From positions 418,759-473,887 of the forward strand of contig RDEW01000002.1 in NCBI GenBank assembly GCA_011109175.1: 55,129 nt of DNA, read 5' to 3'. A program made the translations under genes and the position numbers. Below the pieces are notes generated by a model. That model saw nothing but the letters and a program-made list of their open reading frames with translations, was not told where the DNA came from and did no database searches. The DNA comes from Dicyema japonicum (lineage: Eukaryota > Dicyemida > Rhombozoa > Dicyemidae). Shown in pieces: positions 21,324-49,268 of the stretch; within the stretch, counting starts at the first letter, position 1, and every line of letters begins with the position of its first letter.

Positions 21324-22498
21324 TTAAAGAATAGGTACATATGACATTGGTCCTATGCTAATTCGGCGTTTAATAACAAATGTGATGACTCCGATGATTG
21401 TAGGTGTTACAACAGTGAGTATAATTCCTATAATAATATACATTTTTGAATTATTAGAATTTGTATTTTTTCCAGGAATTCCTTTTTCAAAACACACCGA
21501 CTCTAAAATTCAGGAAAAATCAAACCGTTCCCAGTATAACGGAATTTAAAATCATCCCGAAGAATTTGTGCCTTAAATGATGAAAACTCACCATATATGT
21601 CATCAGCAAATTTAATGAGAGACAATTCGAAGTTACAGGAATTTCCAATATCAATCAATTTGGTATTATTAGGACTCCAAGACACTTTATAGATTTTATA
21701 GATGATTAACTGAATTTTGGACATATAATATTTTTTTTGATACAAAATAAATGTAAAAAGTATTTCAAAACGACTTCCCTTAAGAGTTAACTCAACACTA
21801 TTTTTATCAAAATTAATCTTCGTTTCCAAATTCTCAAAAAAAACTATTAAATCATTAATCTATTATTAAAATATACAATTTACTATATTAACAGTGTGAT
21901 TATAAAAATATATGATTTTAAAATGCCCACTTAATATTCCTTTCAGTTGATTTTTTTCCATAAAATACCAATATCGAACTTTTGGATCGTTAGATAGATC
22001 ACAGTCATGTGCTAAATTAAATTATATCAAACCTTTTCCAATAAAATTTGATCTTGATCGTTTAGTGTAATATTCTATCACCAAAGAATATATCGTGAGA
22101 GTATTACCATTTTCAAAATTTACGGACATATATCCGCATCTGTAATAATCTCCTTGTTTAATTTTTGGAATATTTGTTGTATTTGTATAGGTTTTATTAT
22201 CTTTGAGTGTTAAATATTAATTACTAGAATTTAAATCAATTTTTATTGTAATTTTGTAGAATTCCGCTGAGGATTTAAAATAAAATTGGTAGAACAAGTT
22301 ATTTATTCGCATTGTAATTGGCATTTTATCAAAATAAACCTGGTAAGTAATAATTTCAAATGAATAATTGTCTGTCTACCATTATTATTTATAAAAAACA
22401 TTTGTAAGTGTACTTTTCAATAAACTTTTTCCATATACTGACATTCGATGTTTTAATTCATAATTCTTGATTGTGGACAAAAACATTAACAATAACAT
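21324..22498 (-). CDS. Micro-intron membrane protein family, gene 1 (intact)
   Basis: Six exons on the minus strand: 22498-22400, 22375-22225, 22200-22033, 22011-21884, 21859-21526 and 21502-21324. The introns are 24, 24, 21, 24 and 23 nt, all GT...AG. Spliced, the frame is 352 codons with no internal stop. Unspliced, TAA stops block it in introns 2, 3, 4 and 5. The ATG (MLLLMFLSTI) opens a short hydrophobic leader. Exon 3 has YRCGYMSVNF, exon 4 begins HDCDLSNDP and has VRYWYF, exon 5 has SWSPNNTKL and ILRDDFKF. Exon 6 has a hydrophobic helix (about residues 310-335), then KRR and the final SYVPIL. I infer a type I surface or vacuolar membrane protein. I recognise no known domain. Confidence 0.85.
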
Positions 22499-22560
22499 AA
22501 ATATCTAAAATGACACGTCGATGTTAATAATTTAGGTCACTCGTTATATTCATGAATTTA
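22499..22560 (-). promoter_or_regulatory. Conserved 5' flank of family gene 1
   Basis: Immediately upstream of the ATG, the minus strand has AACGAGTGACCTAAATTAT, then ACATCGACGTGTCA, then a T-rich run to ATG. The same order is found ahead of the other three family starts (31.23, 37.43 and 48.03 kb), although the farther upstream sequence differs. It may be a core promoter or 5' untranslated region. Confidence 0.6.
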
Positions 22561-22770
22561 ATTTTTTTTAATTTTGAAACAAATGATATTTATATTAAAT
22601 TTATAATTATAATTTTTTTCCGAGCCTGTAGAGTTCTTATTTATATCCAAGACTTTTTCCTCATTGTCTTGTTTATTCCAGATGTTCTCACAGAATGCGA
22701 GGCACTCATTTTCATTAAAGCCAAACATGGCTTTTTCATGTTCCCAATTCAGATTCCCGTAAAGTAGCTC
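22558..22770 (-). CDS. Orphan polar open frame upstream of family gene 1
   Basis: A minus-strand open frame reads GNLNWEHEKAMFGFNENECL and continues as a charged, tryptophan-containing sequence. It stops at 22558, inside the conserved flank of gene 1. Its composition is more protein-like than neighbouring frames, but I find no homologue or motif. It has an internal ATG at 22738, and a stop codon lies just upstream of the segment. It may be an exon of a broken gene. Confidence 0.25.
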   Translation of the reverse strand, partial: ELLYGNLNWEHEKAMFGFNENECLAFCENIWNKQDNEEKVLDINKNSTGSEKNYNYKFNINIICFKIKKN

Positions 22771-23600
22771 ATATTAATTTCAAAACACCAATTCTGTCTT
22801 TTATGTTCGTTTTTTGACTGATAATTTTTTTGTTTCTTTTCTAAGATTTTGATTTCATTTTGGATACAAGATGAAATTCTTCTAATTATTCCCTTCTTTG
22901 ATTTTCAAAATCCATATCTACTCAGAATTTCTTTGATTTCTTCATCATAACTTTGATTTTATTTCTGTTCTCCAATTGTTTGGATTTGTACCATTATCTT
23001 CTATTAATTTCTGCTCTCCAAACCTTGTCCTCTATGCACATTGCCCTGTGACTGACGAAACAGTGTCAATTGAAAAACTCTTCAGGTTTTCGACTAAGCT
23101 CTTATCCACTTCCGTGGGTCGGATGATTTTGTAAAACGAGAGTATCCGTATCGGAATTGACTTGTGGTTGGTTCAAAATCTGTGAAACCCGATGTGGACC
23201 CATGGTTGGCAGAAATAAGATTCATTTTCTTTTCAGCAGAAGGAGTAATGGAAGTTTTTCCAACAAGGACATTATTAAAAGTAGATTAGAGTCAGCTGTT
23301 TTTATTCTCAAAATCTCAGTTCTCCATGCATACTGCCCTGTGACTGACGAGGCAGTGTCAATTGAAAAACTTTTCAGTTCTAAGAAGGAAAATTTCAAGA
23401 AACCCTTGGCCACAATTTTGACATATTTTGCCTGCGAGAACGCTGATTCAAAATACTTTTCACAAAATCCGAGATTCGGAAAAGGCCTTGTTGAATTAAG
23501 AGCTCTAAAACTTTCGCGATATCTCTGCAATGAAATTGTAACGTAAAACAACTAAGATAAATAAGGAGGAAGTGGAACATCCGTCTCAACAACGTATTAA
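22771..23600. other. Unassigned, with an imperfect internal duplication
   Basis: About 23018-23100 and 23316-23385 share CCCTGTGACTGACGA and AGTGTCAATTGAAAAACT. The second copy lies in a 129-codon open frame (23157-23546) with no recognised domain. Confidence 0.35.
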
Positions 23601-24295
23601 CTACTCTATTAGAAATTTATAAAGGAGTTTTGTAGCTTTTTCATACCATGTGGCTTGGACACCTCGTCAGTCACCATTTCTCTTAGTTAGGTCTCACTGA
23701 TTTGTAAGAGTAATGGACTTTGTTCCCACCATGAAACCAATTATACTTTCCTCCACCACACACTTGATCGGTTTAAGCAGTTTATATTTTTCCTCGTCTA
23801 GCTCAGTGTTTCTCAACGAGGGGCGAATCGCCCCTATTTGGGGATTTTTTTTGTCAGGGGGACGATGCTCTTCGAAGAGCTTATTGTCATGAAAATTTAA
23901 AGAATGATAAAAAAATCGAGTCTTATATTATTTATATATTTTTTTATTTTATATAACATTTATATTATATTTCATTTAAATTTATTAGCGTGATTTCCAA
24001 TACTTCGTGGTGAGTTTTGTTCAAAAAAAGTTAGAACCTATAAAGAGGAAAATATTTTGTATGGATTTATTATAAATCCTTAGGATCTTCATAAACCGCT
24101 TTGTTTTCAATGTGGTACAGATTGAAATTTTTTCGAGTAAACGAGAAGAACGAGTCCGTGGAGGTGGTGCCACTTGTGCTACTTTAATGTTCTCAAGTCG
24201 GACGAGTTACAAGGCGAGGATCCACATTAAAAGACGAATGAACCTATTGCACTGCAAGGGGATTTCCTCAACGTGAAGAAACGTATTACAAGTCT
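23600..24295 (+). mobile_element. hAT (ZBED-like) 5' terminus and BED-finger remnant, copy 2
   Basis: Matches the hAT terminus at 15245-15541, with CAGTGTTTCTCAACGAGGGG near 23810. Unlike that copy, it continues into coding debris at about 24030-24290. One frame gives ENILYGF and another KPLCFQCG, then LKSDELQ and DFLNVKKR. This order matches the BED-type zinc finger N-terminus of ZBED5/SCAND3-like hAT transposases (YxxYGF...PxCxxC...LKRHxxxKH). It is cut off at about 24300 by a different hAT. Confidence 0.5.
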
Positions 24296-24299
24296 TTTT

Positions 24300-25615
24300 T
24301 TGATTTAAATAGGATTTTTTTGAGATAAATCAGATTTTTTTGAATTAAATGATTTTTATTTAGAAATAAAGTAAAATAAAATTAAAAACAACAGAAATCG
24401 TTTTTATTTATTTAAAAGCTTGTAAACAAAGAACTATTTCGCACAACTGAAGGGATCATTCCGTGGCAGGCCTAGAGTGACGTTGCCTTCAGTACTAAAT
24501 GATGACCTAATCCGAATAAACAAAACTCTACGAAATGGTGAAGATCTTGACTCACTACGAGCAATGGCCCGGAACAGGAGAGCATGGAAGAGGATGTGTG
24601 GGAAAATACTGGACGTGTCACAAGGGGTAACTTAATTAATCTAATTAATTTTTGATTTCCCAGGAGTGCTTAAAAAAACAAAGACAAGTTTGGCAGCTTT
24701 TTCAAATCTGGGAATTGAAAATTAACTCAAGAGTCATGGCAATTCACTTTCAATTCCAGCCTTTTTCGTACATTTGAATGTAAGACTCCAAACGTCGAAA
24801 AAATTCGTTCTATTCCACCTGTGTAGGCAACTGCTCCAATAAATTTTTGGCAGAGTGAAATTACTTCAGAAGGTAAATGGTAAGAGATCGATATATAGTT
24901 TGAGTTGACTCCAAGGCGAGGTCAATCTCAGCAGTTGAATGAGATCTCACAAAACGTGTCGGATCCATTAGATTCGCAAGTAAGTGGAAAAGTGTTAATG
25001 CTTTATTTAAAATAGTCGTACATTCATACTCAACATAAGTCTGTTCAAGTTCTTTCCAAATTGCAGAGGCTAAACCAACAGATTGAAGATACTCCGCGGT
25101 GTGGCTATTTCCAGTGGTGTCCACAGTGTCAATTAGATAGCTTTTTCCATCCGATGTTACAACTGACACACAAATAACAGATTCATTATGAATGTTACTC
25201 CACCAGTCAACATCATAGACGCTGTCTTGTCCGGGAGTCTTTGCCACAGTCTTAATGTATTTGGTCGTACACACTATCGAGCAATAGACCACCAATTTGA
25301 TGACGAGAGGGTAACGATACCCAGAAAGAAGCATTTGGACAAATTTAACAAATTCCGGATGTTCTACAGCAGCAAAAAAAGTGTTGCTGGTATTGACCTT
25401 GTAACTCCTTCCCGCAATTACGGGATCTGGCTCGACTCTCGGTTTTACTACGAATAATACGTTTATCTAAGTGAACCCACAAGGCATCACGCTTTCTTCC
25501 AAACATTAAAAATATTTAAATGATTTTTTTGATTTTCAATGATTTAAATAATTGATTTTTTTGTTGATTAAAATCAAATGATTTAAATCTAACAAACCTA
25601 AATACGAAGATAATT
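24300..25615 (-). mobile_element. hAT transposon with internal deletion, copy 1
   Basis: Minus-strand hAT. From about 25470 it encodes KRDALWVHLDKRII and ESRARSRNCGKELQG, a BED zinc finger whose first Cys is replaced. Then 25215-25060 encode DWWSNIHNESVICVSVVTSD, SYLIDTVDTTGNSHTAEYL and LQSVGLASAI, the DUF659 part of hAT transposases. After a jump, 24850-24750 encode ISLCQKFIGAVAY and GGIERIFSTFGVLHSNVRKR, the C-terminal dimerisation motif. The catalytic centre is deleted. The right inverted repeat near 25600 is mutated and the left is lost. The better copy is at 40821-42156. Confidence 0.85.
24440..24640 (+). pseudogene. LINE-G 3' end nested in hAT, copy 1
   Basis: Plus strand reads SFRGRPRVTLPSVLNDDLI, then LRNGEDLDSLRAMARNRRAW and KRMCGKIL. 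This matches the C-terminus of LINE-G at 15.6 kb (SFRGRPRITLQEVLHKDL, LKTGDDLDTLGITAC). It lies inside the hAT copy and is duplicated with it at 41000-41195, so the insertion predates the duplication. Confidence 0.8.
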
Positions 25616-25619
25616 TTTA

Positions 25620-27150
25620 GAGTGCATTTTTCCAATTGTCATCCACATATTTTTCACTCGTTTTCCAGGGAAACAAAGTTACACAATTCTTGGGATATGA
25701 TCTTCAGGATACGAACCCTTATATCAAAGACTTACCCGTCCTGCAACCGAGCAAGACTTTTATTAAAAATAAAAAGAACAATATTTCTCAAGGTGAATAT
25801 TATCCTCACTTTTTAACTTCGTTTTATTAACAATTAATACATCAACGGGATTAGTGGATATCATATGCACAATCTCAGAACGCCTTCTCTTTAAGTATCG
25901 GGCGTTCACTGCAATGAAAGTATGAATAGATTTCATACTTGTAGAACCTCAGCCTCTCCAATAAATTCCTGACGTCAATTCATTTTTATAAACCAACTTG
26001 TCAACAACATTTTTCAATTCCAAGTCTGCAACTAGGCTTTCCACCTAATTAATAGTACCGACAGTATTCCCTTTGCTCATGTAATTGGTAACAATGTTTG
26101 TATTCTAAGAGGTTAGGTTAGTATCCACTGTCGATATTTTTGCCTCTATTTTGGTTGAAAAATTACAATTTATGGGGTGTTAGATGTTCTTCAAACACTT
26201 TCAACAGCCTTAGCTTTAACTCACTTAACGGGGAGAAACACCTTCTTCGTCATGTCATTTGTTTTTTTTTCTTCGAAGGCAGCCTTTGCTGAAGAACAAC
26301 TACCATAACAAACCAAATGATTAACTGTCCCTCAGTTAATGCATTTCCTTTCACTGTCCTTAGCCAAACGAGAGTTCAAAATGTGTTCTCCACCACAAAT
26401 TATGCACCATTCCTTTTCATTGCAGAATTTCGCAATGTCCCCAACTTTTGACATCTATAGCATTTAGTCACTGGTTTTTTGTACCATTCAAAACAAACTT
26501 TTTGGAACCCAAACACCATCTTCAGTCTCACTTTCGACGTGGTTTCGAATCTAGACTTCAAAGTTAATTTTCCAACAGGAAGACAGCGCCCATCCTTCAT
26601 AAAACGTTGGAAAGAAACCAGGTCGTAGAGTTTCAGTAAAATAAAGATTCAAGTCATCATCTGAGGCCCAAAAATGGATTCCCTTCACAACAACAGTTGA
26701 AGGATATAGGAAGGAAGTATAAAAACATGTCCATCAATACCTAATGAAGCTCTCAAGCCATAATCATCGACACAATCGTCGATATCCTCTATTGAGACAA
26801 ATTCAAGAGTAAATATGCCTGAATTCCTTAATGAAATTCGTTCCTTACTGGCAGTCGCTGTGTTTGTTAGTATGTTAAAACGTTTAATCCATCCCAAAGC
26901 CATATTTTTATTTTCCAGATTTACTACAAAAGACTCATAAGTCAAGTTAGACGAAACAGCTCGTCCTGATACAACAATGTATATTGTTCATCTGTGAGTA
27001 TTTCATTCCCATTTATTGATTTAGATTTCACTGTCGGTTTTCCTTCATTAACCAGTTTTTTTTCTTGGTCGTTGAATCTTTCTCAAATATTTTTTTGTTG
27101 AAATTTAACACACATAACGCAATTATTATCTACTATCAAAATCCATCACT
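25620..27150 (-). mobile_element. LINE-A ORF1 and start of ORF2, copy 1
   Basis: Minus strand. ORF1 pieces include KNMALGWIKRFNILTN and TLEFVSIEDIDDCVDDYG (26940-26690). CCHC knuckles begin at about 26490 with KCYRCQKLG and continue to about 26290. Then 25950-25625 hold the start of an AP endonuclease: VNARYLKRRRSEIVHM, NPVDVLIVN and KLKSEDNIHLEKYC. The endonuclease stops at 25620, where a hAT end follows. Frameshifts break both ORFs. The segment 26640-26820 is present here but absent from the copy at 42.2-43.6 kb. Confidence 0.75.
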
Positions 27151-27280
27151 TAATTTACAGTGCTTTTTCTTTTTAATAACTTACTTAATATTAAGTAGGC
27201 TGATAATATTCTTTTGCTCGATCTTAGTATTAATAGACCGAGTTTTGGAAACGAACTTCAACCCACATTGATAAAATTAA

Positions 27281-27485
27281 ATGTTGTTGCCGATATAAAG
27301 GTTTATCCTTATCTCTTGAAATATGTACTGCTTCATGGATTGTGAAATACAAGAATAAATGAAAGATTTGTATTAATACTGGAATGTTGTTGCCGATATA
27401 AAGTTTTATCCTTATCTCTTGAAATATGTACTGCTTCATGGATTGTGAATTACAAGAATAAATGAAAGATTTGTATTAATACTGG
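27281..27485. repeat. Two-copy tandem duplication, period 103 bp
   Basis: ATGTTGTTGCCGATATAAAG starts at 27281 and recurs at 27384. The equivalent place at 43751 has a single copy, so this duplication arose after the larger block was copied. Confidence 0.9.
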
Positions 27486-27499
27486 AGCAATCAAATGCC

Positions 27500-27610
27500 T
27501 GGTACAATTGCAATATCTTGGTGGTTGTGTAATATCGAAGGGTTCCTTCATTAATTATATCAAGAAAAAGAGGGAAAAGCTACGGCGATGTAGAAATCGC
27601 TTCTACGTTA
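27500..27610 (+). pseudogene. LINE RT thumb fragment
   Basis: Plus strand reads QYLGGCVISKGSF then YIKKKREKLRRCRNRF, the strand and helix after the RT palm. The match to 43860-43977 ends abruptly at about 27608. There the sequence jumps to LINE-C material equivalent to 46447, leaving out about 2.5 kb. Confidence 0.6.
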
Positions 27611-28560: not shown

Positions 28561-28624
28561 TTTAACACGTACTTCCTGCGTTGATATAATCACAAGACAC
28601 GCACTGCTCTTTCGATATCGCAGG

Positions 28625-28690
28625 TTTAAAAAAAAGTTAATTTTAATTATAAATTTGCCTCTCTGTAGTAAGTGAGGCAGTCCCAATTCT
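28625..28690 (-). repeat. LINE-F 3' tail fragment
   Basis: Short match to the LINE-F 3' untranslated tail (TTAATTTTAATTATAAATTTG, split here at position 20, followed by TCTGTAGTAAGTG). Confidence 0.7.
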
Positions 28691-28749
28691 AAAGAGATTT
28701 CACAGATAATTTCGATATTCGGACACACCCGAAGTGGATTCTTTTTACA

Positions 28750-29244: not shown

Positions 29245-29252
29245 TGATTAAT

Positions 29253-31144
29253 TTAGTTATTTTATTTAACACCCAAGACTACGGTAAAACCAAAACTAAC
29301 TATCACGTGATCCCGATGCGCTCCGTCAAAATCCTCATTCTTTCCCGGTGCTCCTCCCTCGTACCTACACAAGCTCGTACAGGGCGGCTGACTGTATTTG
29401 CAGGGCCGGTATATTGTTTAATGAGGGCCTCTAGAGTAGTCGGTCCGGTTCTTTGTCTTCCATAGACCACCGATCCGTCATTCTGAAAGCTTTCTTTTGA
29501 ACGTCCTCGATTATCTTAATGTTCGTCCATGATAATGTAGGTCCCCACAAAGTACACGCGTACGAGAAGCATGGTTCGATGTCTTGCTTATAAATGTTCA
29601 TCAAGACCGAGTGGGTATCTTCTTCCATATTCCAGATAAACATTTCAATGCATTGATTTTCTTCTCGCACTTCAGAACAATGTTTGCCACGTGTGATGAC
29701 AAACATAAGTGTGTATCAAGTGTTACGCCCAAGATCTTCTGATGTTTGGTGAAGGGGATTTCAATGTTGTCCAATTTTAACTTGACAGTCATCTACCCAA
29801 CCTTTTGTCTGAAGTAAACATAGACGTGACCGTCTTTCTGGAATTTATCGTGAGTCGGTTCTTTATAAACAGGCGTTGAGTCTGTCCAGGTTAATTTGTA
29901 ATCTTTCTGTAGCATTTTGGATCATGCGAGACCAAAACAATGTCGTCCGCATATGTGAGTAGAAAATTTTGTGTAGAATTTTATCAAATTGTTAACGTCT
30001 CGTTGAGTATACTCATCCTCGGGAGAGGTTTTTTCTCCCTTTGCAACATTTCAGATGGCTTTCCACACTTCTCTGGTACTACGGTTGCGATTTACCTTTG
30101 TAAGAATCCGATTCCAATTCAATTTCTGGCCCTTGAAATCTCTGGCCTTTATTTCGTTGTTTAGAGCTCTGATCCAGAGTTTCGTTTTTAATGTAATCCA
30201 ATTAGATTTTTTAAGGTGGTTTCTTTCTTTGATCAATGCCGACTTCCCTCGACCATTAGAGGAGTGTAGACGATGCTTGGGAATAGCCAATGATCTTGCT
30301 TCTAGGATTGTGGAAGTAAAGTATTTGATCGCTTTTTCTAGCGATTTGAAGCTGACCAAGTAACAATTCTTCAGTCTATCATCAGAGATTGCGCGATTCA
30401 ATTCCCAATTAGCAGCTTTGTAGTTATAACTAGCAGGTGTTCTCCTCACTCTGACTTCTCTTATAACCTTCATCACAATTGGATTATGGTCGCATCTTTT
30501 TTCGTAGAGGACTGACCAATCAATTTTTGATGAAAGCGAAGATGAGCAGAGTGTTACATCCAGTGAGATAAGATGATCCGTCTCTCTGAGTGGGGTCTTT
30601 GTATTTTTCGCTGCATCGTTCAGTATCGTTAGGGAATCCGATTTCAATAACAATAGCTTCCATCTCGTGTCGGTCTGTTGGGTTGACAACCATAATGGGT
30701 GCTTTGCGTTTAAATCTCCACATATGATTATCTCATCGTAGATAGCCAATCTTGATAGGTTTGGAATAACATAGTCTTTTGGGCAGGAGTCGGGAGGAGG
30801 CAAGTAGATATTCACGAGGCGCATACTTCCTTTCGTTGTCCAATTGCCTCAGTAACCTCGTCATTTCCAACAAGTTTCCTCACTTCCGAAGTAATGTCTC
30901 TGCATTTCAGGTTCTTTTTGTATAGTGTAAGTAGACCAACCCCTCTTTTCTTTTTGCGGTCCATCCAGATTGCCTCGTATCCAGGGAATGAAGGAGTGGA
31001 ATCATGCATGCGGAGTTTAGTTTCTTGAATCATGGCCACGTCGATGTTCTGATTTGCCAGGATTGTGCGGAGTTCCCTGACTTTGCTTTTAATTCCGTTG
31101 ATATTTAATTGGAGAGCAGTAAATTTCTTTTCTCCACACTAGGC
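29253..31144 (-). mobile_element. LINE, 2A-type family, inserted with target duplication
   Basis: A 5'-truncated LINE of the same family as 5316-7395, minus strand. The endonuclease starts at about 31130 (LNINGIKSKVREL) with QETKLR, GDLNAKHP, DVTLCSSS and CDHNPIV; Cys replaces the usual Ser before DH. The linker ends in VWKAI near 30055. The frame then jumps to TYADDIVLVS (about 29955), so RT motifs from about 1 to B are missing. The rest includes KILGVTLDTHLCLSS, CFSYACTLWG and the C-terminal RIGIT. TGATTAAT flanks it at 29245-29252 and 31145-31152. The empty site is seen at 47940-47950. Confidence 0.88.
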
Positions 31145-31152
31145 TGATTAAT

Positions 31153-31290
31153 TAATGAAAATAAGATTATTACAATTATATAATTTATATAAGTTTTATT
31201 AGTTTCGAATTTATTATATTTTAAAAATTAATTCATCAATATAACAAGTGACCTAAATTATACACAACGAAGTGTTCATTTTTCATTTTT
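31153..31290 (+). promoter_or_regulatory. Conserved 5' flank of family pseudogene
   Basis: Contains AACAAGTGACCTAAATTATA and CACAACGAAGTGTTC ahead of the ATG at 31291, matching the flanks of the other family members. The LINE insertion ends only about 140 bases upstream of this ATG. Confidence 0.6.
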
Positions 31291-32470
31291 ATGTTATTGT
31301 TAATGTTTTTTCTCAATCACGAATATCAAATTCAGACCTCATATGTCATTATTTGGAAATTGTTTATTGACGAGCACTCGTAAAAATGTATTTTATAAAT
31401 AATTATAATGGTAGACAAAGAATTATTTATTTAAAATTCATTTTGGAATGAATTTTTATGATGGAATGAACACTAAATTCCAAATAACAAACTTAATTTT
31501 CAATTTTTTTGGTGGATTATCAGAGGAATTTTACAACCTCTCAATATAAATAGAATTAAATTCTAGTGATTATTATTTAACACACAAAGGGGATGAAACC
31601 TATACGAATACAATAAATCTTCCAAATATTAAATATGGAGAATATTACAGATGCGGGTATATCTCCGTAAATTTTGACAATACTTATTCTCTCACAATTT
31701 ATTCTATGACGGCAGAATTGTTCGATAAAGATATACGTACAAATTTAATTGGAAAGGGTTTGAATCTTGTTTAATTCAGCAAATGACTGTGATCCATCTA
31801 ACGATCCAAATGTTCGATATTGGTATTTTATTGCCGAAAATAGACTAAAAGCTATATTAAGTGGGAATTTTAAAATCATATTTTTTAATGATCACATTCA
31901 TAAAAACGTAAATTGTATATTTCTATAGTTGATTAATGAATTTTTATTTTCAGACCAAAATATGAATACTACAATTTATTTTGGAAACAATAGTGTGGCG
32001 TTGTCTCTTATAGGAATACATTTTGAATTATTTTTTACATTTATATTGTATCAGAACAAATATTATATCTCCAACATTCAGTTAATCATCGATAGCGTGT
32101 ATACTCTGTCTTGGAGACCTAATAAATCCAAATTGGTTGATGTTAGGAATTCATGTACCTCCGACTTGCTTATTGCTAAATTTACTGATGACATATATGC
32201 TGAATTTTCATTATTTAAGGCACAAATTCTTAGGGATGATTTGAAATTCCGTTATATTGGGAACGGTTTAATTTTTCTTGAATTTTAGAGTCGGGGTGTT
32301 TTGAAAAAATAACTTCTGGAAAAAATAAAAATTATAATCATTCAAAAATTTTTAAAATTATAGGAATTATACTCACTGTTCTAACACTTGCAATCATCGG
32401 AGTCATCGCATTTGTTAAGATTAAACGTCGAAATAGGATAAGACGGATGGAATATATTCCTCTTCTATAA
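31291..32470 (+). pseudogene. Micro-intron family, copy 2 (inactivated)
   Basis: The same six-exon structure as the intact genes: exons 31291-31387, 31415-31565, 31590-31757, 31780-31907, 31929-32265 and 32289-32470, with introns of 27, 24, 22, 21 and 23 nt. Two lesions are visible. Two bases are missing in the leader near 31307, and a TAA stands at 31547-31549 in exon 2 where the paralogue has AAA. Exons 3-6 remain open and end in MEYIPLL. It is closest to the gene at 48.1 kb. Its loss may be connected with the LINE inserted just upstream, but the order of events is unknown. Confidence 0.85.
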
Positions 32471-32549
32471 CGGCTTTTAATTTTCTTGTTATTTTTATTT
32501 TTTAATTTTACGTAATCCCAAGCACGTTCAAATAATTTCGTTAATTATC

Positions 32550-35990: not shown

Positions 35991-36309
35991 CGATATTATT
36001 AAAATTACTATAAGTAGTCAAAAATTCTCTGATGTTATACAATCCGTGTATAATTCACAAGGTACCCTGAATATGCTCAGAAATGAATTTGTCAAAATTT
36101 ACGTGTTTCATTGAAAACTAATGCAATAGTTTATCAAAACCCTAGGGCAGCAATACTTTTATAAAAAATTGATTCTTTCTACAAAGTTAAAAACAATCGA
36201 AAATAATCTTCAAAAAATGGTAAATCTTTTTAAAATGGATCACGTTTTTGAGATTTTATTCTCTCACAACTTCGTAATGGATACTTTTACGTGACGAATT
36301 ACTTGAAAA

Positions 36310-36611
36310 TATCATGTCCAACAAGAATGAATGCTGATGATTTATATGCTGAGTTTTCACAATTTGAGGCACAAATTCTTCGAGATGATTCTAATTCTAG
36401 TTATACTGGAAAAGGTTTAATTTTTTATGAATTTTAGAGTTGAAGTGTTGAAATAATAACTCTTGTTAAAAAACAAATTCTAATCATTCGAAAAATGTAT
36501 ATAATAATATGAATTATATCCCTGATCTAACATTTACAATTATCGAGTTATCGTATTTTTTATTAATCGCCAAAATATAATAAGATCAATGCCATATATT
36601 CCTGTTCTTTG
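36310..36611 (+). pseudogene. Micro-intron family, fragment (exon 5 end to exon 6)
   Basis: Starts inside exon 5 (ADDLYAEFSQFEAQILRDD-like) and runs through the 23-nt intron 5 (GTTTAA...TTTTAG at about 36416-36438). The rest is a decayed exon 6 that still ends with CCATATATTCCTGTTCTTTGA, the YIPVL tail. Frameshifts and stops are present in exon 6. The 5' part is missing. Confidence 0.75.
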
Positions 36612-37009: not shown

Positions 37010-37488
37010 TGTCATGATTACAAAAAACGAATAAATTCTTAAATAACAAAAATATGAAATTTTTATTAAAAGCCGAGGGTGAAACCAAACTAGATAATTT
37101 ATCCTGACACGTTCCAGCGATTCAAAAAGTCGTCTAGAGGTAACGAAATTGTTTCACGGGAAAAGAATAGTAAGATCCTTGTGAATGCCTTCCATACATT
37201 CGGCGTCTCTTTAGTAAGGTGTATTCAATGAAGCTATCAGAAGGAAAAAAGGTAAATTTTTAACCAATTAGCAAAAGCATCACATGGCAATACGTGGCAT
37301 CAATGTAAATGACGCTTTAGAGAGTGCATTATTGAATAGGACTTTTTTGATTAATGAATTAATGAAAATAAGATTATTATAATTATAAAAATAATTGAAA
37401 TATCATATTTTTATATTATTAAAAATAAATTCATCAATATAACAAGTGACCTAAATTATACACATCGACGTGTTCATTTTACATATTT
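37010..37488 (+). promoter_or_regulatory. Upstream region of family gene 2
   Basis: The distal part matches 28900-29244. The proximal part (37425-37488) carries the conserved block AACAAGTGACCTAAATTATA and CACATCGACGTGTTC. An inverted ACAC/GTGT pair brackets ATCGAC. The ATG follows about 20 bases later. Confidence 0.55.
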
Positions 37489-38660
37489 ATGTTATTGTTA
37501 ATGTTTTTGTTCTCAATCACGAATATCTACTTTAATCATAAATTGGCAATAAATTTTAAAAGTTTATTGAAAAATACAATTACAAATGTATTTTATAAAT
37601 AATATTAAAGACAAACGATAATTCAATAAAAAGAATTTCTTTTCGTACTTATGATGAAATGTCAGTAACAACCCAAGAGAATAACTTGATCTATCAATTT
37701 ATTATTGATTGCACAAGCGAATATTATAGCATCTCAATAAAAATAGAATTAAATTCTAGTATTTAATAGTTTACACTCAAAGATAATAAAACCTATACAA
37801 ATTCAACAAATCTTCAGAATATTAAACATGGATATTTTTACAGATGCGGATATATATCCGTAAATTTTGAGAATGGTAATACTCTCACATTATATTCTTT
37901 GGTGATAGAATTTTACATTAATCAATCGTATTTATATATTATTGGAAAAGGTTTGATATAATTAAATTCAGCACATGACTGTGATCCATCTAAAGATCCA
38001 AAAGTTCGATATTGGTATTTTTTTGCAAAAAACCGACTGAAAGCAATATTAAGTGGCCATTTAATGATCACATTTTTTTATAATCACACTGCTAATAATG
38101 TAAATTGTATATTTTAATATTAGATTAATGATTTCTCAATTTTTTTTGAAAATTTGGAAACGATGGTTAATTTTGATAAAAATAGTGTTGAGTTATCTCT
38201 TAAGGGGAAATATATTGAAATACTTTTTACATTTATTTTGTCTCAAGACAAATATCATATTTCTAAAATTCAGATAATCATCGTTGATTATTATAATGAG
38301 TCTTGGAGTCCTAATAATTCCAAATTGATTGATGTTGGTAATTCTTGTAAATTCGATTTGTCTCTCACTAAATTTTCTGATAACTTATATGCTGAATTTT
38401 CAATATTTAAGGTACATATTCTTCGAGATGATTCTAAATTCAGTTATACTGGAAAAGGTTTTATTTTTCCTAAATTTTTAGAGTCGAAGTGTTTCGAAAA
38501 AGTAACTCCTAGAAAAAATACAAATTCTAATCATTCAAAAATGTATATAATTATAGGATTTACACTCACTTTTCTAACATTTACAATCATCGGAGTCATC
38601 TCATTTGTTATTAAGCGCCGAAATATGACAAGACAAATGGTATATGTCCCTATTCTTTAA
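37489..38660 (+). CDS. Micro-intron membrane protein family, gene 2 (intact)
   Basis: Exons 37489-37587, 37611-37758, 37783-37950, 37972-38099, 38124-38457 and 38482-38660; introns 23, 24, 21, 24 and 24 nt, all GT...AG. The spliced frame is 351 codons. Intron 2 contains TAA and TAG in frame, so an unspliced reading looks like a pseudogene. Intron 5 is a multiple of three without a stop, so its retention would insert eight residues. The protein starts MLLLMFLFSITNIYF. It has YRCGYISVNFENG in exon 3 and HDCDPSKDPKVRYWYF in exon 4. Exon 5 has SWSPNNSKLIDVGNSC, and exon 6 a helix IIIGFTLTFLTFTIIGV. Its basic KRR tail ends in MVYVPIL. It groups with gene 1 by sequence. Confidence 0.88.
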
Positions 38661-39245
38661 CTGTCATTAATTTTCTTGTTGTTTCTTGTTTCAATTCTCC
38701 CAAACAAGTTACATAATAATTTTGTTAATTATCCTATTCCAAGTAGCTCTTTTCTTGTCATTAATTTTCTTGTTGTTTCTTGTTTCAATTCTCCCAAACA
38801 AGTTACATAATAATTTTGTTAATTATCCTATTCCAAGTAGCTCTTTTCTAGTATTATCACTTAAAAGGTCAAAATATTCTGCATTTTCAACTCTTTCATA
38901 TCTCGTTACAATGGGATACTTGCTGATTCGCAATTTGGCATCTGCAGACACCTTTTTGCAGTCAAAATTTTAAGATTCCTCATTGAATGCATATGAAGCA
39001 TCGATTGTATTCGAGATCTTTAAATAATCAAATACAACAGTCTGTGACCAGAATTTATAAGCAGACCGCTGTCGCAGATATGAGTGAAGTCATAGATGCT
39101 TAGAAAATCTATTTTTTTAGATCGCTTAGGTCAATGATATCTAAATTGAGCAACCTTTTATAATAATTGTAACAATCGATTTTTTGGAATAATAAGCTCA
39201 AATTTATCATATTTTTTCTAACTCCTTATCATTTTTATTCTTCGC
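38661..39245. repeat. Gene 3' flank with 94-bp tandem duplication and LINE-C debris
   Basis: A two-copy tandem repeat (TTAATTTTCTTGTTGTTTC at 38667 and 38761, period 94) lies directly after gene 2. From about 38870 the sequence is a diverged version of 1640-2080, including TTTTTGCAGTCAAAA and TAATTGTAACAATCGAT. Confidence 0.8.
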
Positions 39246-39261
39246 GATGAACACCAAGACA

Positions 39262-40590: not shown

Positions 40591-40820
40591 GCGAAGGTAG
40601 ATGACCCAACCTGATACTGCACGAATAGAGACATCCCAGATATTCATAGAGTACCTTATGTTTGTCAGATCAGAGCGTAATAGAGCAGGCTTTAACTCTA
40701 ATAAAGCTAGGTTGAGTTTATATGGATTGGTAGATGAAACAACCAATGTCACCAAACGTAATCGGTCGTAACGGTGCATTTTTATCATGAAGAAAATTCT
40801 CGATAAGATAAGGATACTAA
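40591..40820. other. Unassigned flank left of hAT
   Basis: An 86-codon minus-strand frame (40579-40839) has no recognised domain. Confidence 0.25.
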
Positions 40821-42156: not shown

Positions 42157-42174
42157 AATACAAAGATAATTTTT

Positions 42175-43620
42175 AGAGTGCATTCTTCCAATTGTCATCC
42201 ACATATTTTTCACTCGTATACAATTCTTGGGATTTGATCTTCAGGATACGAACCTTTATATCAAAGATGTACCCGTCCTGCAACCGAGCAAGACTTTTAT
42301 TAAAAATAAGAGAACAATATTTCTCAAGGTGAATATTATCCTCACTTTTTAACTTCCTTTTATTAACAATCAATACATCAACGGGATTAGTGGATAGCAT
42401 ATGCACAATCTCAGAACGCCTTCTCTTTAAGGATCGGGCGTTCACTGAAATGATAGCAAGAACAGACTTCATACTTGTAGAACCTCAGCCTCTCCAATAA
42501 AAGGGCCAACAAATTCCTGACGTCAAATCACTTTTTCGGCACAAATATAAACTAACTTTCAACAGCATTTATCAATTCCAAGTCTGCAATCCAATAAAAG
42601 AGCCAACAATTTCCTGACGTCAAATCACTTTTTCGGCACATATATAAACTAACTTTCAACAGCATTTATCAATTCCAAGTCTGCAACTAGACTTTCCACC
42701 TAATTAAAAGTACCGACAGTATTCCCTTTGCTCATGTAATTGGTAACAATGTTTGTATTTTAATAGGTTCGGTTAGTATCCACTGTCGATATTTTCGCCT
42801 CTAATTTAGTTAAAAAATCACATTTTATGGGGTGTTAGATTTTCCACTTTCACTTTCAACAGCCTTAGCTTTAACCAACTTAACGGGCGAATCACCTTCT
42901 TCGTCATGTCTTTTGTTTTTCTTTCTTCGAAGGCAGCCTTTCCTGAAGAACAACTACCATAACAAACCAAATGATTAACTGTCCCGCAGTTAATGCATTT
43001 CCTTTCACTGTCCTTAGACAAACAAGATTTCAAAATGTGTTCTCCACCACAAATTAAGCACCTTTCCTTTTCCTTGCAGAATTTCGCAATGTCCCCAACT
43101 TTTGACATCGATAGCACCTAGTCACTGGTATTTTGTACCATTCAAAACGAACTTTTTGGAACCCAAACACCATCTTCAGTCTCACTTTTGACGTGGTTTC
43201 GAATCTAGACTTTAAGTTAATTTTCCAACATGAAGACAGCGCCCATACTTCATAAAACGTTGGAAAAAGAAACCAGGTCGTAGAGTTTCAGTAAAATAAA
43301 GATTCAATTCGTTCCTTACTGGCAGTCGCTGTGTTTGTTAGTATGTTAAAACGTTTAATCCATCCCAAAGCCATATTTTTATTTTCCAGATTTACTACAA
43401 AAGACTCATAAGTCAAGTTAGACGAAACAGCTCGTCCTGATACAACAATGTATATTGTTCATCTGTGAGTATTTCATTCCCATTTATTGATTTAGATTTC
43501 ACTGTCGGTTTTCCTTCATTAACCAGTTTTTTTTTCTTGGTCGTTGAATCTTTCTCAAATATTCCTTTTGTTGAAATTTTGACACACATAACGCAATTAT
43601 TATCTACTATCAAAATCCAT
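42175..43620 (-). mobile_element. LINE-A ORF1 and start of ORF2, copy 2
   Basis: Minus strand. ORF1 starts at the ATG near 43613 (MIVDNNCVMCVKIST) with a lysine-rich stretch and NEILTDEQYTLLYQDELF. The zinc region is well kept: GDIAKFCKEKERCLICGG, CLSKDSERKCINCG and NHLVCYGSCSSGKAAF (43090-42920). ORF2 starts near 42472 with ISVNARSLKRRRSEIVHM and NPVDVLIVN, the first strand of an AP endonuclease, and is cut at 42175. Three CCHC-like knuckles and an RRM-like region identify it as a LINE ORF1. A 97-bp tandem duplication lies at 42494-42690. Confidence 0.8.
42494..42690. repeat. Two-copy tandem duplication, period 97 bp
   Basis: CCAATAAAAGGGCCAACAA at 42494 recurs as CCAATAAAAGAGCCAACAA at 42591. 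The corresponding place at 25.95 kb is single-copy. Confidence 0.9.
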
Positions 43621-43859
43621 CACTTAATTTACAGTGCTTTTTCTTTAAAATAACTTAATAATAAGTAAGCTGATAATATTCTTTTGCTTTATTTTAGTAT
43701 TAATAGATCGAGTTCTTGTAAACAAAATTCAACCCACATTGATAAAATTAAATGTTGTTGCCGATATAATGGTTTATTCTTATCTCTTAAAAAATGTACA
43801 GCTTCATGGATTGTGAATTACAAGAATAAATAAAAGATTTGTATTAATATTGCAGCACT

Positions 43860-44460
43860 CAAATGCCTGGTACAGTTGCAATATCTTGGTGGTTATGTAA
43901 AATCAAAGGGTTCCTTCATTAATTATATCAAGAAAAAGAGGGAAAAGCTACGGCGATGTAGAAATCGCTTCTACGTTTTCAATTGAGTCCGGAAACTTTT
44001 CCTCACGTGTATGCAGCTAGTATAGAACCATTCTTGATTTATGGCTTCCAAGGATGGTTTGAAAGTGATGCGAGAAGTACACTTGTAGAGCTTCTCGATA
44101 AATTGAGGAGATATGCTATTTAACGGGCATATGGATTTGATTTACAAGGATGGTTTGAAAGTGATGAGAGAAGTACACTTGTAGAGCTTCTCGATAAATT
44201 GAGGAGATATGCTATTTAACGGGCATATGGATTTGATTTAAAGTCTAAATTACTGCGTAGTGATGAAAGACGTGTATATCCATTAAGGAAATATTGTACC
44301 ACATTAAAAAATAATTCCTGTCGGATGCAAGGGTCAATATTTGTCTCGTTATACCAGACACCATCAACCAGGACAAACTCGTTTGCTTCTTCCTTTTTAT
44401 TTAGTTTTTAATTAGTAACGAGTATGTTATGCTAATAAAATTATATATCTATCTAACCGG
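43860..44460 (+). pseudogene. LINE RT thumb fragment with 96-bp duplication
   Basis: Plus strand reads QYLGGYVKSKGSF, YIKKKREKLRRCRNRF and then IEPFLIYGFQGW. A 96-bp tandem duplication (AAGGATGGTTTGAAAG at 44050 and 44146) repeats the LVELLDKLRRYA segment. The single-copy version is at 1-470. Confidence 0.65.
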
Positions 44461-44465
44461 TTTAT

Positions 44466-46060
44466 GTGTTGTGCAAAATAAATACTGTTATTAAAGACTT
44501 TTACTATGACCTCGTTAAAAATTCAAATAATAATTATGAAATGATGATAATTGGAATAATAGTTATGGTAACGTCTCAATTCAAAGAGTTCTCTATAAAA
44601 AAAATTGAAAAACGTGGCAAAAGATTACATATTGCAAAACTAAAACTAGAAAACCGTGGAGAAGCTCAGTCTTTAATTAGACTTGGTTTTAATAATAGTT
44701 TCTCACAATTCACAGTGAATGGTTCAAAAAACCTGAAATCCAATGCTTTCACTGTCAGTTATTCGTCATATTGCGCGTTTCTGCAAAAACGTTGAAAGAT
44801 GTTTGATTTGCTCAAAAACCACAGAAGGTCGGATTGTCAACTTGACTTAAAGAACGGTAAAAATTTCATAAATTGTGGATCAACTAGCCACATGGCTAAC
44901 TGCGGAGCTTGCTCTTGTGCAAAAGCAGCTAATAAACTCGAGATGATAAATTTTTACCTCAAAGTAAACCTCGCAATGAAGGTGTTGCTAAAGGAAGTAC
45001 TGTTGCCAGGAAGATCGGAGACAATAAAGATTTGGCCAAGCCAACTCGAACAAGATGGAATCGGATCACGCCTAAGAATACGACCTCGGATATTGGAATG
45101 TAGACGGATAGACCACCAGTGTCTTCAGTTGACAATGGATCCCAAACTCAGTCACTAAGTCAATCAGCGAATCCAAAAGACCCGAATGGACAGGAAGATC
45201 CCACAGTAAACAGATATATTCAGGAAGAGGAAAGTGTTCATAATATTGTTGATAAATTATCTAAAAATATTAAAAACATGTCAAGAAGGAAAAAAGATGC
45301 CAAGTTTTTTGGCTGGTGGAGCTCCTAAGAAGAAAAGACAGCCATCAAATAAGTCAGATATAAACAGGATTACCCTGGTTAATGCCCGACTCTTAAAAAG
45401 CGGGCTACGGAGCTGGTAGCCTGACCAGCGCTGTTGAGATGGGTGTATAAATTATTAATGAAACGAAGATAAACTTGGAATGATTAATATACATAATTCG
45501 ATTAATTTTTCCATGGCTAACAGTAACCTCTATTTTCTAAAAAGAGTATTAAAACGCGATTACCTAGAATTGTAGAAGAGAATGTCTGCGAATTATTATG
45601 CATTGATTTGTACACTTCTATTGGTTGGGTAACAATTGGTGGAATTTACTTAAAAAAATAAAGGAATTATCCAAGGATTATAAAAGATTTTTTTGATAAT
45701 AATTTAAACTCAATCCTTGTAGGAGATTGTATTGCAAAAAATTAGCATATGGTTGTGTGAAAACTAATTTTGACGGCAAATGTTTATTGGAAATAATGGA
45801 ATCAGAAAATTTAGTAGTTTCTACGTCTAAAGAACTTAATCATTTTTATCAGCGGAGTGCTGGTATTTGGGTATTTTTGTTATGCAAGAAAACCTCGTTT
45901 TATTGACGGGTAGCCCTATGTCAAAATGATGTAAGGAGTGATCACTCACTTCAAACTTTCAAGCTGTGAAACAAAGTTCGACAAAAATTCCAAGCCCAAC
46001 TCTCCACACAATTTGATAACTTTATCAAGCTCAGAGTCAAAGGTATCTCCAGTTGCGTAA
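44466..46060 (+). mobile_element. LINE-A ORF1 and endonuclease, copy 3 (plus strand)
   Basis: ORF1 is at 44466-45158: SIKKIEKRGKRLHIAKLK, then knuckles INCGSTSHMANCGACSC. ORF2 starts near 45350 with RITLVNARLLKS. The endonuclease continues as VEENVCELLCID, SIGWVTIGGIYLK, NLNSILVGDCIAKN (the GDFN-like metal site, Phe to Cys) and RSDHSLQTFKL (the SDH motif, about 45940). Stops and frameshifts occur throughout. It ends near 46060, facing a LINE-C fragment on the other strand. Confidence 0.78.
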
Positions 46061-46129
46061 CTTAAGACTACTTAGACAACGCGACTTCAGCTCGCAAGGG
46101 ATGAAAAGTGGGATTTAGAGAGTCTCATT

Positions 46130-47440
46130 GCTGAACTCCTATGAGTGAATAATCGATATCGCTTCCATAAACTAAAGCTGAGTTGTCTCATACGATAGGT
46201 TTACTAGTCAGCCAACCTTTGGAGCTCTTTTCCAACAGGTTTCTAAATAATTTCTCTTTTCAGCGAGTTGAAGGCATTTGATATTAAGCTTCAGGCCTAG
46301 CCTTTGGGTCAGGGAATTATTGTTGTTGAAGTAAATCCTCAAGGCTTAGACTGCGGCCTCGCAACCACGGATCACTCCCACCCCACAGCTCTTCAGCACT
46401 ATTGTGGGAGACTTTCCGGGCGGCGATTTTGCAGCAAGGCTTTGAAATTATGTACTGATCTCAATTGGGCGAACACCATCTCTTTTTGCTGAATGCCAAT
46501 AGAATCTTTTTTTCACAAAAAAAGAAGATCTCTAGCAAATTTTAAAATATCACCATTAACTAATCTAGTGAGCATCAAGGTGATAAACGTTAACAAGTCA
46601 CGGCCGACTTTAGCAGTAGTTCCGGATGTTACGTTTTTTACATGGCTTGGGCACAGTTTGTCCAGACCTCCGCAGCTACTGAGAGGAAAGACATTATTTC
46701 ACGCACTACATCAAATTCAGTGGAAGTAAATGCCGGGAGGTCTTCTGGCATTGTCAAGTTCCGTAGTTCGGTGGTGGAGTAGGGAGCTTCATTCTCAGTA
46801 ACTCCAAGACTTCAATAGTGATTCGTCACAAGACACTACTCTAACAGCTGCGCGAACGCCCCCTTCCATCAGTTTTCGGTTCACTCTTTTGAAATGTTTT
46901 AGAATTTTTCTGTATACATCCAGCTTCTGTAGACAACTGTTTAGGCCAAAGTACTTGATCAAGCTTGATTCCTGAGTCTTGCTGCGTTGAGGTTGCCAAA
47001 AATCCAAAAGTATTTTTAAATTTTGAGGCTAATGATCAGTTGCGAGCTTGCTCTGAGGGGGAAATTCCTAGGGTCATAGGTGCAAAGCTCAGTAGACGTA
47101 TCCAAGAGGCCTAGTCGCTGGTACTGATAGCTCTATAAATTAAAGACGTGAGGTATTCAGCAGTGGGAATTCGAACGGCCTTTGGTGTTCTCAGAGGAAT
47201 CCGTCTACCTTTCCGACTCTCCGATAGGCGTAACAAAAAGGGTGATGAGTGAATATTGCCGGATGACGGCACCGAGCGGGGTCGGTATCCATACAGTATG
47301 CGCAGTCCTATTAGTAAAGAGATCTCGCAGCCAAATTCGACATTCGGACTCACCCGAGGTGGTAAAATCTCTCGCAGATGTGCAATTTAACACGTACCTC
47401 CTGCGTTGATATAACCAGAAGACACGCACTGCTCTTTCGA
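46130..47440 (-). mobile_element. LINE-C RT N-terminal part and motif A, copy 2
   Basis: Minus strand. In order: SPNVEFGCEISLLIGLRIL (47353), SKTQESSLIKYFGLN, then NRKLMEGGVRAAVRVVSCD, a K(L/M)xxGDVxxAIRxL-type segment. Next come the S..CGGLDKLCPSHVKN segment (SxGGPDGxxPQHLK in relatives) near 46620, RDGVRPIEIST and RGCEAAV. Last is LKLNIK followed by AFNSLKRE in a shifted frame, which is motif A with Asn for the catalytic Asp (about 46250). It extends farther than the copy at 27.6-28.5 kb. Confidence 0.78.
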
Positions 47441-47644
47441 TCTCGCATGTAAAACTAGTACTTCTTCAAATGTAACGTGATCCAAGAAAGGTACGGTGAA
47501 CAGACTCAGAATTGGCTTGATTAGTTTTCTAATGTTCTTTTTTGATTTTTTTTTCTTTTTCTCTTTTTTCTTTTTTTTTCTTCGTACTACAACGATAATG
47601 CACCAGAGCTATAAAAAATGAGTCAAAGTCACACTAAAATAATT

Positions 47645-47900
47645 TGTATAATAATGTTTAAGTTAAAAAAAATTATCGATCTCGTTGACCACATTAATTT
47701 TTTTTTTTTTTTAGTGAAAATTTATTAACAATAAAATATTATTTATTAACTATGGGGGAGAGCGGCTGCTGACATCACGGAGTAAGCGTTTCCGCGAACA
47801 ACTACGATACCACATTAATTAAAAAAATTTTAATTTTAATTATAATTTTGCCTTTCTGTAGTAAGTGAGTCAGTTTCAATTGTAAAGGGATCTTAAAATA
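47645..47900 (-). repeat. LINE-F 3' tail, interrupted by a retrocopy
   Basis: AGTTAAAAAAAATTATCGAT and CTCGTTGACCACATTAATT match the LINE-F tail (19460-19550, 34990-35090, 52995-53090). The tail resumes at 47809 with AATTTTAATTATAATTTTG and TTCTGTAGTAAGTG. Between lies a 109-bp insertion with a 12-bp duplication. Confidence 0.85.
47700..47808 (-). pseudogene. 5'-truncated poly(A) retrocopy, possibly an Sm/LSm mRNA
   Basis: A 109-bp insertion flanked by ACCACATTAATT at 47688-47699 and 47809-47820. On the minus strand it reads as the last 20 codons of a protein, IVVVRGNAYSVMSAAALPHS, ending in TAA (47748-47746). A short 3' untranslated region with AATAAA (47726-47721) and a run of A follow. 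The segment is markedly more GC-rich than its surroundings. VVVRGN fits the Sm2 motif of Sm/LSm proteins (SmG ends ...MVVIRGNSIIM...), but 20 residues are too few to be sure. The structure is that of an mRNA end copied by LINE machinery. Confidence 0.75.
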
Positions 47901-48019
47901 AATGACGCTTTACAGTGTGCAGTGTGAAGTAAAACTTTCTTGATTAATGAATTAATGAATATGAAATTATTACAATTATAAAATCAATATTAGTTTTATT
48001 TTTTCGAAATTATTATAAT

Positions 48020-48089
48020 TTAAAAATAAATTCATCAATATAACAAGTGACCTAAATTATACACATCGAAGTGTTGATTATACATTTTT
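48020..48089 (+). promoter_or_regulatory. Conserved 5' flank of family gene 3
   Basis: TTCATCAATATAACAAGTGA then CCTAAATTATACACATCG, then AAGTGTTGATTATAC and a T run before the ATG at 48090. Matches the other three flanks at nearly every position, whereas sequence between genes is unrelated or degraded. Confidence 0.6.
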
Positions 48090-49268
48090 ATGTTATTGTT
48101 AATGATTTTGTCCTCAATCACGAATATCAAATTCAGACATAAAATGTCATTATATGGAAATTGTTTATTGACAAGTACTCGTAAAAATGTATTTTATATA
48201 TAATAATAATGGTAGACTAAAAATTATTCATTTGACATTCATCATGGAATAACTTTTAATGATGGAATGAATTATAAAATCCAAAGAAAAAACTTAATTT
48301 TCAATTTTTTTGGTGGATTCTCAGAGGAATTCTACAACCTCTCAATAAAAATAGAATTAAATTCTAGTGATTATTATTTAACACTTAAAGGTGATGAAAT
48401 TTATACGAATACAATAAATCTTCCAAATATTAAATATGGAGAATATTACAGATGTGGGTATATCTCCGTAAATTTTGACAATACTTATTCTCTCACAATA
48501 TATTCTATGACGGCAGAATTGTTCACTACAGATTTACGTCAATATTTAATTGGAAGGGGTTTGAATTTTGTTTAATTCAGCAAATGACTGTGATCCATCT
48601 AACGATCCAAATGTTCGATATTGGTATTTTATTGCCGAAAATAGACTAAAAGCTATATTAAGTGTGAATTTTAAAATCATATATTCTAATAATCAAATTC
48701 ATAAAAACGTAAATTGTGTATTTCTATAGTTGATCAATGAATTCTTATTTTCAGACCAATATATGAATACTACGATTTATTTTAGAAACAATAGTGTCGT
48801 GTTGTCTATCATAGGGATACATTTTGAAATATTTTTTACATTTATATTGTATCAGAACAAATATTATATCTCCAACATTCAGTTAATCATAGATAGCATG
48901 TATACTCTGTCTTGGAGACCTAATAAATCCATATTGGTTGATGCTAGGAATTCATGTACCTCCGACTTGCTTATTGCTAAATTTACTGATGACATATATG
49001 CTGAATTTTCATTATTTAAGGCACAAATTCTTCGGGATGATTTGAAATTCCGTTATATTGGGAACGGTTTAATTTTTCTTGAATTTTAGAGTCGGGGTGT
49101 TTTGAAAAAATAACTTCTGGAAAAAATAAAAATTATATTCATTCAAAAATTTTTAAAATTATAGGAATTATATTCACTGTTCGAACACTTGCAATCATCG
49201 GAGTCATCGCATTTGTTATGATTAAACGTCGAAATAGGATAAGACCAATGGAATATATTTTTCTTTAA
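48090..49268 (+). CDS. Micro-intron membrane protein family, gene 3 (intact)
   Basis: Exons 48090-48188, 48216-48366, 48391-48558, 48581-48708, 48730-49066 and 49090-49268; introns 27, 24, 22, 21 and 23 nt, all GT...AG. The spliced frame is 353 codons. Intron 2 is a multiple of three with no stop; introns 1, 3, 4 and 5 contain in-frame stops. The leader is MLLLMILSSITNI. Exon 2 holds NFFGGFSEEFYNLSIKIEL, exon 3 YYRCGYISVNFDN, exon 4 NDCDPSNDPNVRYWYF. Exon 5 holds SWRPNKSILVDARNSC and AQILRDDLKFRYIGN, exon 6 SGCFEK, a helix near IIGIIFTVRTLAIIGVIAF, then KRR and the tail EYIFL. No known domain is recognised. The predicted location is a secretory or surface membrane. Confidence 0.88.

Follow-up and report, generated by a model that had tools for sequence, protein, structure and literature searches.

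Dicyemids are tiny parasites of octopus and squid kidneys. A 55,129-nucleotide (nt) stretch of the Dicyema japonicum genome (the window; contig RDEW01000002.1, positions 418,759 to 473,887) holds three intact members of a gene family, termed here LAMP-like genes 1, 2 and 3, together with a fourth copy and a fragment of a further one (Table 1). A first-pass annotation had described these genes as several copies of one family, interrupted by introns of 21-27 nt and encoding type I membrane proteins, and our analysis supports this. The coordinates given there for the three genes, the exon lengths (99, 148/151, 168, 128, 334/337 and 179 nt), intron lengths (21-27 nt), phases (0, 1, 1, 0, 1) and protein lengths (351-353) were all found to be exact, the exons to the base. 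Each gene has a single open GT..AG model when these exon lengths are used and introns of 19-29 nt are allowed, and the same models ranked best when exon lengths were allowed to vary by 18-90 nt and introns to measure 18-40 nt. The nearest relative of the fourth copy in the window is gene 3. A short exon-3-like match close to the window end (54772-54846, plus strand; C87:473530-473604) is probably a fragment of another copy, and a tandem duplication of roughly 90-100 nt lies directly 3' of the gene 2 stop codon (~38662-38850, plus strand).

The three copies first recorded understate the size of the family. We searched an assembly of 64,672,829 bases in 191 contigs; the match counts score only the best candidates and include fragments. 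Exon 3 of gene 2 gave at least 108 matches, corresponding to at least 106 distinct places on 43 contigs (up to 15 per contig), and the gene 2 exon 5-6 frame at least 119. Copies occur in clusters and in both orientations. Complete models were obtained for 19 of the 68 loci fetched, a set in which some genes are represented twice, and 16 of the 19 (15 close copies plus the distant L050) were kept after removal of the repeats L012 and L047, and of L062, in which no transmembrane helix was seen by eye in the last exon. L031 is also outside the complete set, and the remaining fetched loci are broken, partial or too divergent for the six-exon model. A second subfamily (L086, L087 and L088) shows 37-41% identity to gene 2 in exon 3 and has its own leader (MNRTI...) and its own tail, of type KSHxEIQESIPL in both L087 and L088; the end of L086 is not clear. 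Exon 3 of L088 has at least 128 matches, overlapping the gene 2 exon-3 set.

Introns are retained in the copies examined, so amplification took place at the DNA level rather than through retrocopies. An origin by retrocopying or on a transposon was thus rejected, also because homology ends at differing points around the copies: over the 120 pairs of the 16 complete copies, flanking homology has medians of 124 nt upstream and 106 nt downstream, with several pairs bounded by the ends of the fetched loci. Gene conversion between copies is likely, since exon 6 of L004 is identical to that of gene 1 over the matched part while its exons 2 and 4 are only 71-78% alike to the best window copy.

Tiny introns

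The excised segments are, as far as DNA can tell, spliceosomal introns. The first-pass annotation had judged the restoration of the frame at five places per copy hard to explain by chance. This is borne out by paralogue L050, which at 35% amino-acid identity keeps all five intron places and phases, with intron lengths of 24, 25, 22, 24 and 22 nt. All ten splice sites are kept in 28 of 35 near-full-length close copies, and eight or nine in the other seven; the count was made by position against one reference copy and errs low, as gene 3 is among the seven yet has all sites in its own model. The suggestion that intron lengths vary independently of phase carries little weight, as 78 of the 80 introns in the 16 complete models fall within 21-25 nt (the remaining two are 27 and 35 nt).

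Confirmed genes of this genome do have such short introns. Beta-tubulin loci L074, L075, L076 and L081 carry GT..AG introns of 24, 26, 24 and 28 nt, respectively, at one shared place, after the Lys codon of GQCGNQIG[SA]K/FWE, and a second place is shared by L076 (25 nt) and L081 (26 nt). L076 also has one intron of 49 nt. These data come from the 4 resolved loci among 12 tubulin loci, some of which overlap; the two inner L076 introns were confirmed by script and the others read by eye from the sequence. A script check of two L081 stretches recovered no introns, probably owing to the chosen reading start. Introns below 30 nt, as typical of dicyemid conserved genes, are therefore present in the beta-tubulin loci here.

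Short-intron genes in dicyemids were reportedly described by Ogino in 2010. According to the passages on introns in two further papers, those of D. acuticephalum average 26.2 nt (n = 16, genomic compared with complementary DNA (cDNA) clones; PMC2222250), and the median in Dicyema sp. is 27 nt (PMC6543705). These published descriptions deal with conserved genes or with averages over a genome. The tiny-intron structure is thus real but was overstated in the first-pass annotation, as it is the published norm for dicyemids. The further remark that ordinary gene finders would miss it was also too strong, as the published modelling of dicyemid genes, in the part describing it, already used transcript hints (PMC6736024).

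Likeness to LAMP proteins

The predicted proteins begin with a hydrophobic leader, which is followed by two luminal domains in tandem, a single transmembrane helix and a short, basic tail with a YxxPhi-type motif. Two cysteines (one pair) are conserved per luminal domain, residues 104, 142 and 296 (gene 2 numbering) being present in all 16 complete copies and residue 256 in 15 of 16. The transmembrane peak lies at ~309-347 in the complete models, and luminal N-glycosylation sequons average 7.0 per copy, compared to 4.8 in shuffles. The YxxPhi motif is located at the end, or one residue before it, in 15/15 close complete copies; the distant L050 has N for Y. Domain 1 is homologous to domain 2 (HHalign probability 91%), intron 3 (end of domain-1 exon 3) and intron 5 (domain 2) occupy the same place and phase within their domains, and the linker between the domains as cut consists of six residues.

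Whereas no known domain had been recognised in the first pass, Pfam, profile and structure searches indicate that the ectodomain resembles two LAMP-like luminal domains. In a search over all Pfam families (E-values only), LAMP was matched by 17 of 29 members at E up to 10, with a best value of 1.8e-4. LAMP-only profile tests single out the family within the genome, and domain 2 scored above 100 of 100 controls in the LAMP-only test. The score of domain 1 (exons 1-4) against LAMP itself was not separable from shuffles. A first AlphaFold2 model of gene 2 exon 5 reached a predicted local distance difference test (pLDDT) score of 48 and was kept as a weak first look. In a model of the same exon alone with pLDDT 64, the membrane-proximal luminal domain displays the LAMP beta-prism fold, and structure searches with this domain 2 model returned LAMP at ranks 1-3 and 1-4. 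Other weak Pfam names, namely Oxysterol_BP (5/29), MbnP (3/29), eleven families once each and DUF7075 (above LAMP for L010), were set aside because structure searches did not support them.

A comparison to LAMP-1 and LAMP-2 (PF01299; PDB 8fy5, 5gv0, 5gv3 and 8ath) shows the same arrangement of leader, two tandem luminal domains and one transmembrane helix, the same short basic tail ending in a YxxPhi motif, and several N-glycosylation sequons. The domain-1 YRC of the family aligns with LAMP YKC, and the last domain-2 cysteine with the last of LAMP. The first domain-2 cysteine of the window copies is located two residues before that of LAMP (GNSC compared to GNSYKC); in L050 it is, by eye, at the LAMP position. 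The dicyemid family has no Gly before the tail Tyr, unlike the LAMP family. LAMP-3 (DC-LAMP; PDB 4akm) has one such luminal domain plus a mucin-like stretch, in contrast to the two luminal domains seen here. To our knowledge, other animals have one to a few LAMP genes, as opposed to the at least 106 exon-3 places in this genome.

Several observations weigh against the assignment to LAMP. No match reaches the curated PF01299 cut-off of 27.2 bits in the bit-score tables (best 20.4 bits, for L050), Pfam on full-length genes 1-3 gave no LAMP, and PDB sequence searches gave no match or only matches taken as chance. The cysteines of LAMP domains pair as two disulfides per domain, whereas the family has one pair. 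In our reading, each domain keeps the counterparts of LAMP cysteines three and four and presumably lacks the first pair. In LAMP-1/2 a Pro/Ser/Thr-rich hinge separates the luminal domains, and the family lacks such a hinge. Searches of ~5.8 billion proteins found nothing, either with the gene 2 exon 5-6 frame, for which length limits kept full-length relatives out of reach, or with a 7-row full-length alignment, in a set that may not hold dicyemids. We hence use the name LAMP-like because fold and layout fit, yet the Pfam cut-off, the four-cysteine rule and the hinge fail.

Divergence, upstream element and surroundings

Pairwise comparison of the 15 close complete copies (105 pairs) gave a median non-synonymous (dN) and synonymous (dS) divergence of 0.188 and 0.190, with a dN/dS ratio of 0.97 (0.55-1.54) that equals or exceeds 1 in 50 of the pairs. 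For genes 1-3, a comparison that the first-pass annotation had suggested, the ratios are 1.15 (1-2), 1.24 (1-3) and 0.86 (2-3). A ratio near 1 coupled to a lack of transcripts had been named there as evidence against the genes; the ratio is indeed near 1, but reading frames are kept open, which together suggests diversification rather than decay. Divergence by codon position is 0.173, 0.143 and 0.157, and introns of equal length differ at 10.5% of sites compared to 15.8% for exons. Of the 35 near-full-length close copies (complete and not), 24 are without in-frame stop, with a mean of 0.49 stops; neutral simulation on the tree of the copies led to 12.0 stops per copy and to 0/35 stop-free copies in each of 300 runs.

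A one-ratio codon model gave omega 0.99. The three-class model differs from the two-class model by 103.9 in twice the log-likelihood. Omega is 4.1 for ~15% of codons, and among the 348 sites there are 14 that exceed 0.95, 11 of them located in exons 1, 2 and 5. With fixed relative branch lengths and no recombination, the sites model favours positive selection.

The DNA directly upstream of the genes is conserved. Across 15 copies the last 35 bases before the start codon differ by 9.6%, positions -105 to -36 by 15-16% and positions -140 to -106 by 28.3%. This region includes an element that is a candidate shared promoter element. When up to 2 mismatches are allowed, its 23-mer core GTGACCTAAATTATACACATCGA has 43 occurrences in the genome (the reversed control 0), and 41 of the 43 are followed within 1,200 nt by an exon-3 match on the same strand. 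In the window, a longer form (up to 3 mismatches allowed) precedes each of the three genes as well as the fourth copy and is absent elsewhere, and parts of the element remain before L050. The element contains TGACCT, and a near-palindrome ACACATCGACGTGT adjoins it.

The window has a GC content of 27-40% in 2-kb steps and contains open reading frames (ORFs) for endonucleases of long interspersed nuclear element (LINE) type (Table 1). ORFs 6755-7339 and 15592-16236, near the LINE ORFs, appear reverse-transcriptase-like by eye and have no Pfam match. A transfer RNA (tRNA)-like stretch with a GGTTCGAATC box was seen by eye at ~49394-49465 (plus strand); ARAGORN called no tRNA in the window, so this is perhaps a tRNA-derived short interspersed nuclear element. 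In the summary figures of its description, the D. japonicum genome comprises 67.5 Mb assembled (65 Mb estimated) with 36.7% GC, 48.9% repeats, multiple LINE ORFs and 5,012 predicted genes (PMC6736024).

Table 1 Features of the window, numbered from its first base
Feature	Position	Strand	Details
LAMP-like gene 1 (L007)	21324..22498	-	exons 22498-22400, 22375-22225, 22200-22033, 22011-21884, 21859-21526, 21502-21324; introns 24, 24, 21, 24, 23 nt
LAMP-like gene 2 (L001)	37489..38660	+	exons 37489-37587, 37611-37758, 37783-37950, 37972-38099, 38124-38457, 38482-38660; introns 23, 24, 21, 24, 24 nt
LAMP-like gene 3 (L033)	48090..49268	+	exons 48090-48188, 48216-48366, 48391-48558, 48581-48708, 48730-49066, 49090-49268; introns 27, 24, 22, 21, 23 nt
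Fourth copy (L029)	~31290..32470 (ends approximate)	+	located between gene 1 and gene 2; all six exons represented, exon 2 with one nonsense codon
Fragment of further copy	36297..36515 (C87:455055-455273)	+	exon 5-6 region, 3 stops
Gene 2 exon 3	37783..37950	+	second half of LAMP-like domain 1, YRCG motif
Gene 2 exon 5	38124..38457	+	encodes the greater part of LAMP-like luminal domain 2; its model matches structures of LAMP-1, -2 and -3
Gene 2 exon 6	38482..38660	+	last domain-2 cysteine, transmembrane helix, tail ending YVPIL
Conserved upstream element AAGTGACCTAAATTATACACATCGACGTG	37444..37472	+	16 nt before gene 2 start codon
Counterpart of upstream element	22542-22514	-	before gene 1
Counterpart of upstream element	31246-31274	+	before fourth copy
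Counterpart of upstream element	48045-48073	+	before gene 3
LINE-type endonuclease ORF (PF14529)	5755-6417	+	
LINE-type endonuclease ORF (PF14529)	30051-30824	-	

Proposed role and rival explanations

Taken as a whole, the evidence makes it probable that this dicyemid family of spliceosomal genes encodes LAMP-like glycoproteins, has expanded within the lineage and is diversifying fast. LAMPs enter the secretory pathway, are N-glycosylated, are sorted through their tail by adaptor protein (AP) complexes to endolysosomes and partly to the surface, and form a protective glycan coat. By analogy, the dicyemid proteins would enter the secretory pathway and be N-glycosylated there, and their tail would direct them through AP complexes to endosomal and lysosomal compartments and, in part, to the plasma membrane. 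They may form a glycan-rich coat on the membranes by which dicyemid cells take up host urine. Less certainly, the outer faces may be diversifying because they meet a variable partner from outside, such as host lectins or haemocytes, microbes or other dicyemids, as would be suggested by sequences that change rapidly while the fold is preserved.

It is possible to view the copies instead as a decaying repeat family, i.e. passengers of segmental or LINE-driven duplication that are mostly pseudogenes adrift. The dN/dS near 1, the similar divergence at the three codon positions and the LINE endonuclease ORFs nearby would fit, as would the fact that 68 fetched loci yielded 16 complete models, with many others having frameshifts or stops. 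This is nevertheless improbable given that 24/35 copies are stop-free compared to none in any neutral run, that splice sites are kept, that equal-length introns are less diverged than exons (0.105 versus 0.158), and that upstream conservation is concentrated next to the start codon (9.6% versus 28.3% difference further out); some of the frameshifts may moreover be assembly errors, weakening the case for decay further. Germline-soma differences exist in dicyemids, and the short segments could in principle be DNA removed from somatic chromosomes rather than introns. We regard this as extremely unlikely, since nothing observed here favours it, the segments are GT..AG, phased and resemble introns of the tubulin genes in the same genome, and the published introns of D. 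acuticephalum came from a comparison of genomic and cDNA clones (PMC2222250).

If the fold were unrelated to LAMP, the proteins would form a beta-rich receptor family specific to this lineage, and any resemblance to LAMP would reflect convergence or noise. This view would be consistent with every LAMP sequence match lying below the Pfam cut-off, with PDB sequence searches lacking a LAMP match, and with the modest confidence of a model covering domain 2 alone. We consider it quite unlikely, because LAMP comes out on top or most frequently when all families or all structures are searched, the LAMP-only tests distinguish the family within the genome and place domain 2 ahead of all its controls, and topology and tail also fit LAMP. 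Less easily set aside, if still tentative, is the idea that the same proteins, rather than forming a lysosomal or nutritive coat, act at the cell surface as a variable repertoire for recognising the host or other dicyemids, in which the tail serves internalisation. The large copy number, the clusters in both orientations, the omega of 4.1 on ~15% of codons and the location of 11 of the 14 top sites in exons 1, 2 and 5 all point this way. On the other hand, surface location and one-at-a-time expression are so far hypothetical, the shared upstream element would rather fit joint expression of the copies, and the tail motif is LAMP-like.

LAMPs are usually regarded as conserved, low-copy lysosomal coat proteins. 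Tiny dicyemid introns are already known, and the expansion of a LAMP-like family is apparently unreported: the main texts of PMC6736024 and PMC6543705 do not contain the word 'LAMP', the supplements (including the multicopy cluster list of PMC6736024) being outside this search and the wider literature search incomplete. Set against the 5,012 genes predicted in the genome description (PMC6736024), at least 106 exon-3 places are a large share for such a genome, and would be so even with many of them broken or fragmentary. Divergence among the copies proceeds at the neutral rate, with reading frames, splice sites and the upstream element preserved. The 35 close copies provide many 21-27 nt introns at fixed places for studying splicing in an animal, and the family is a large natural collection of LAMP variants with which to ask what parts of the fold and the tail are important. 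It also offers a way to approach how dicyemids subsist on host urine or encounter the host and each other. We can only speculate that a LAMP-derived family of more than 100 loci with a shared upstream control element became a fast-diversifying recognition repertoire, with positive selection acting on its outer faces. If true, this would be a recognition repertoire made from a lysosomal coat protein, in one of the simplest animals, with a relative that has ~5,000 predicted genes.

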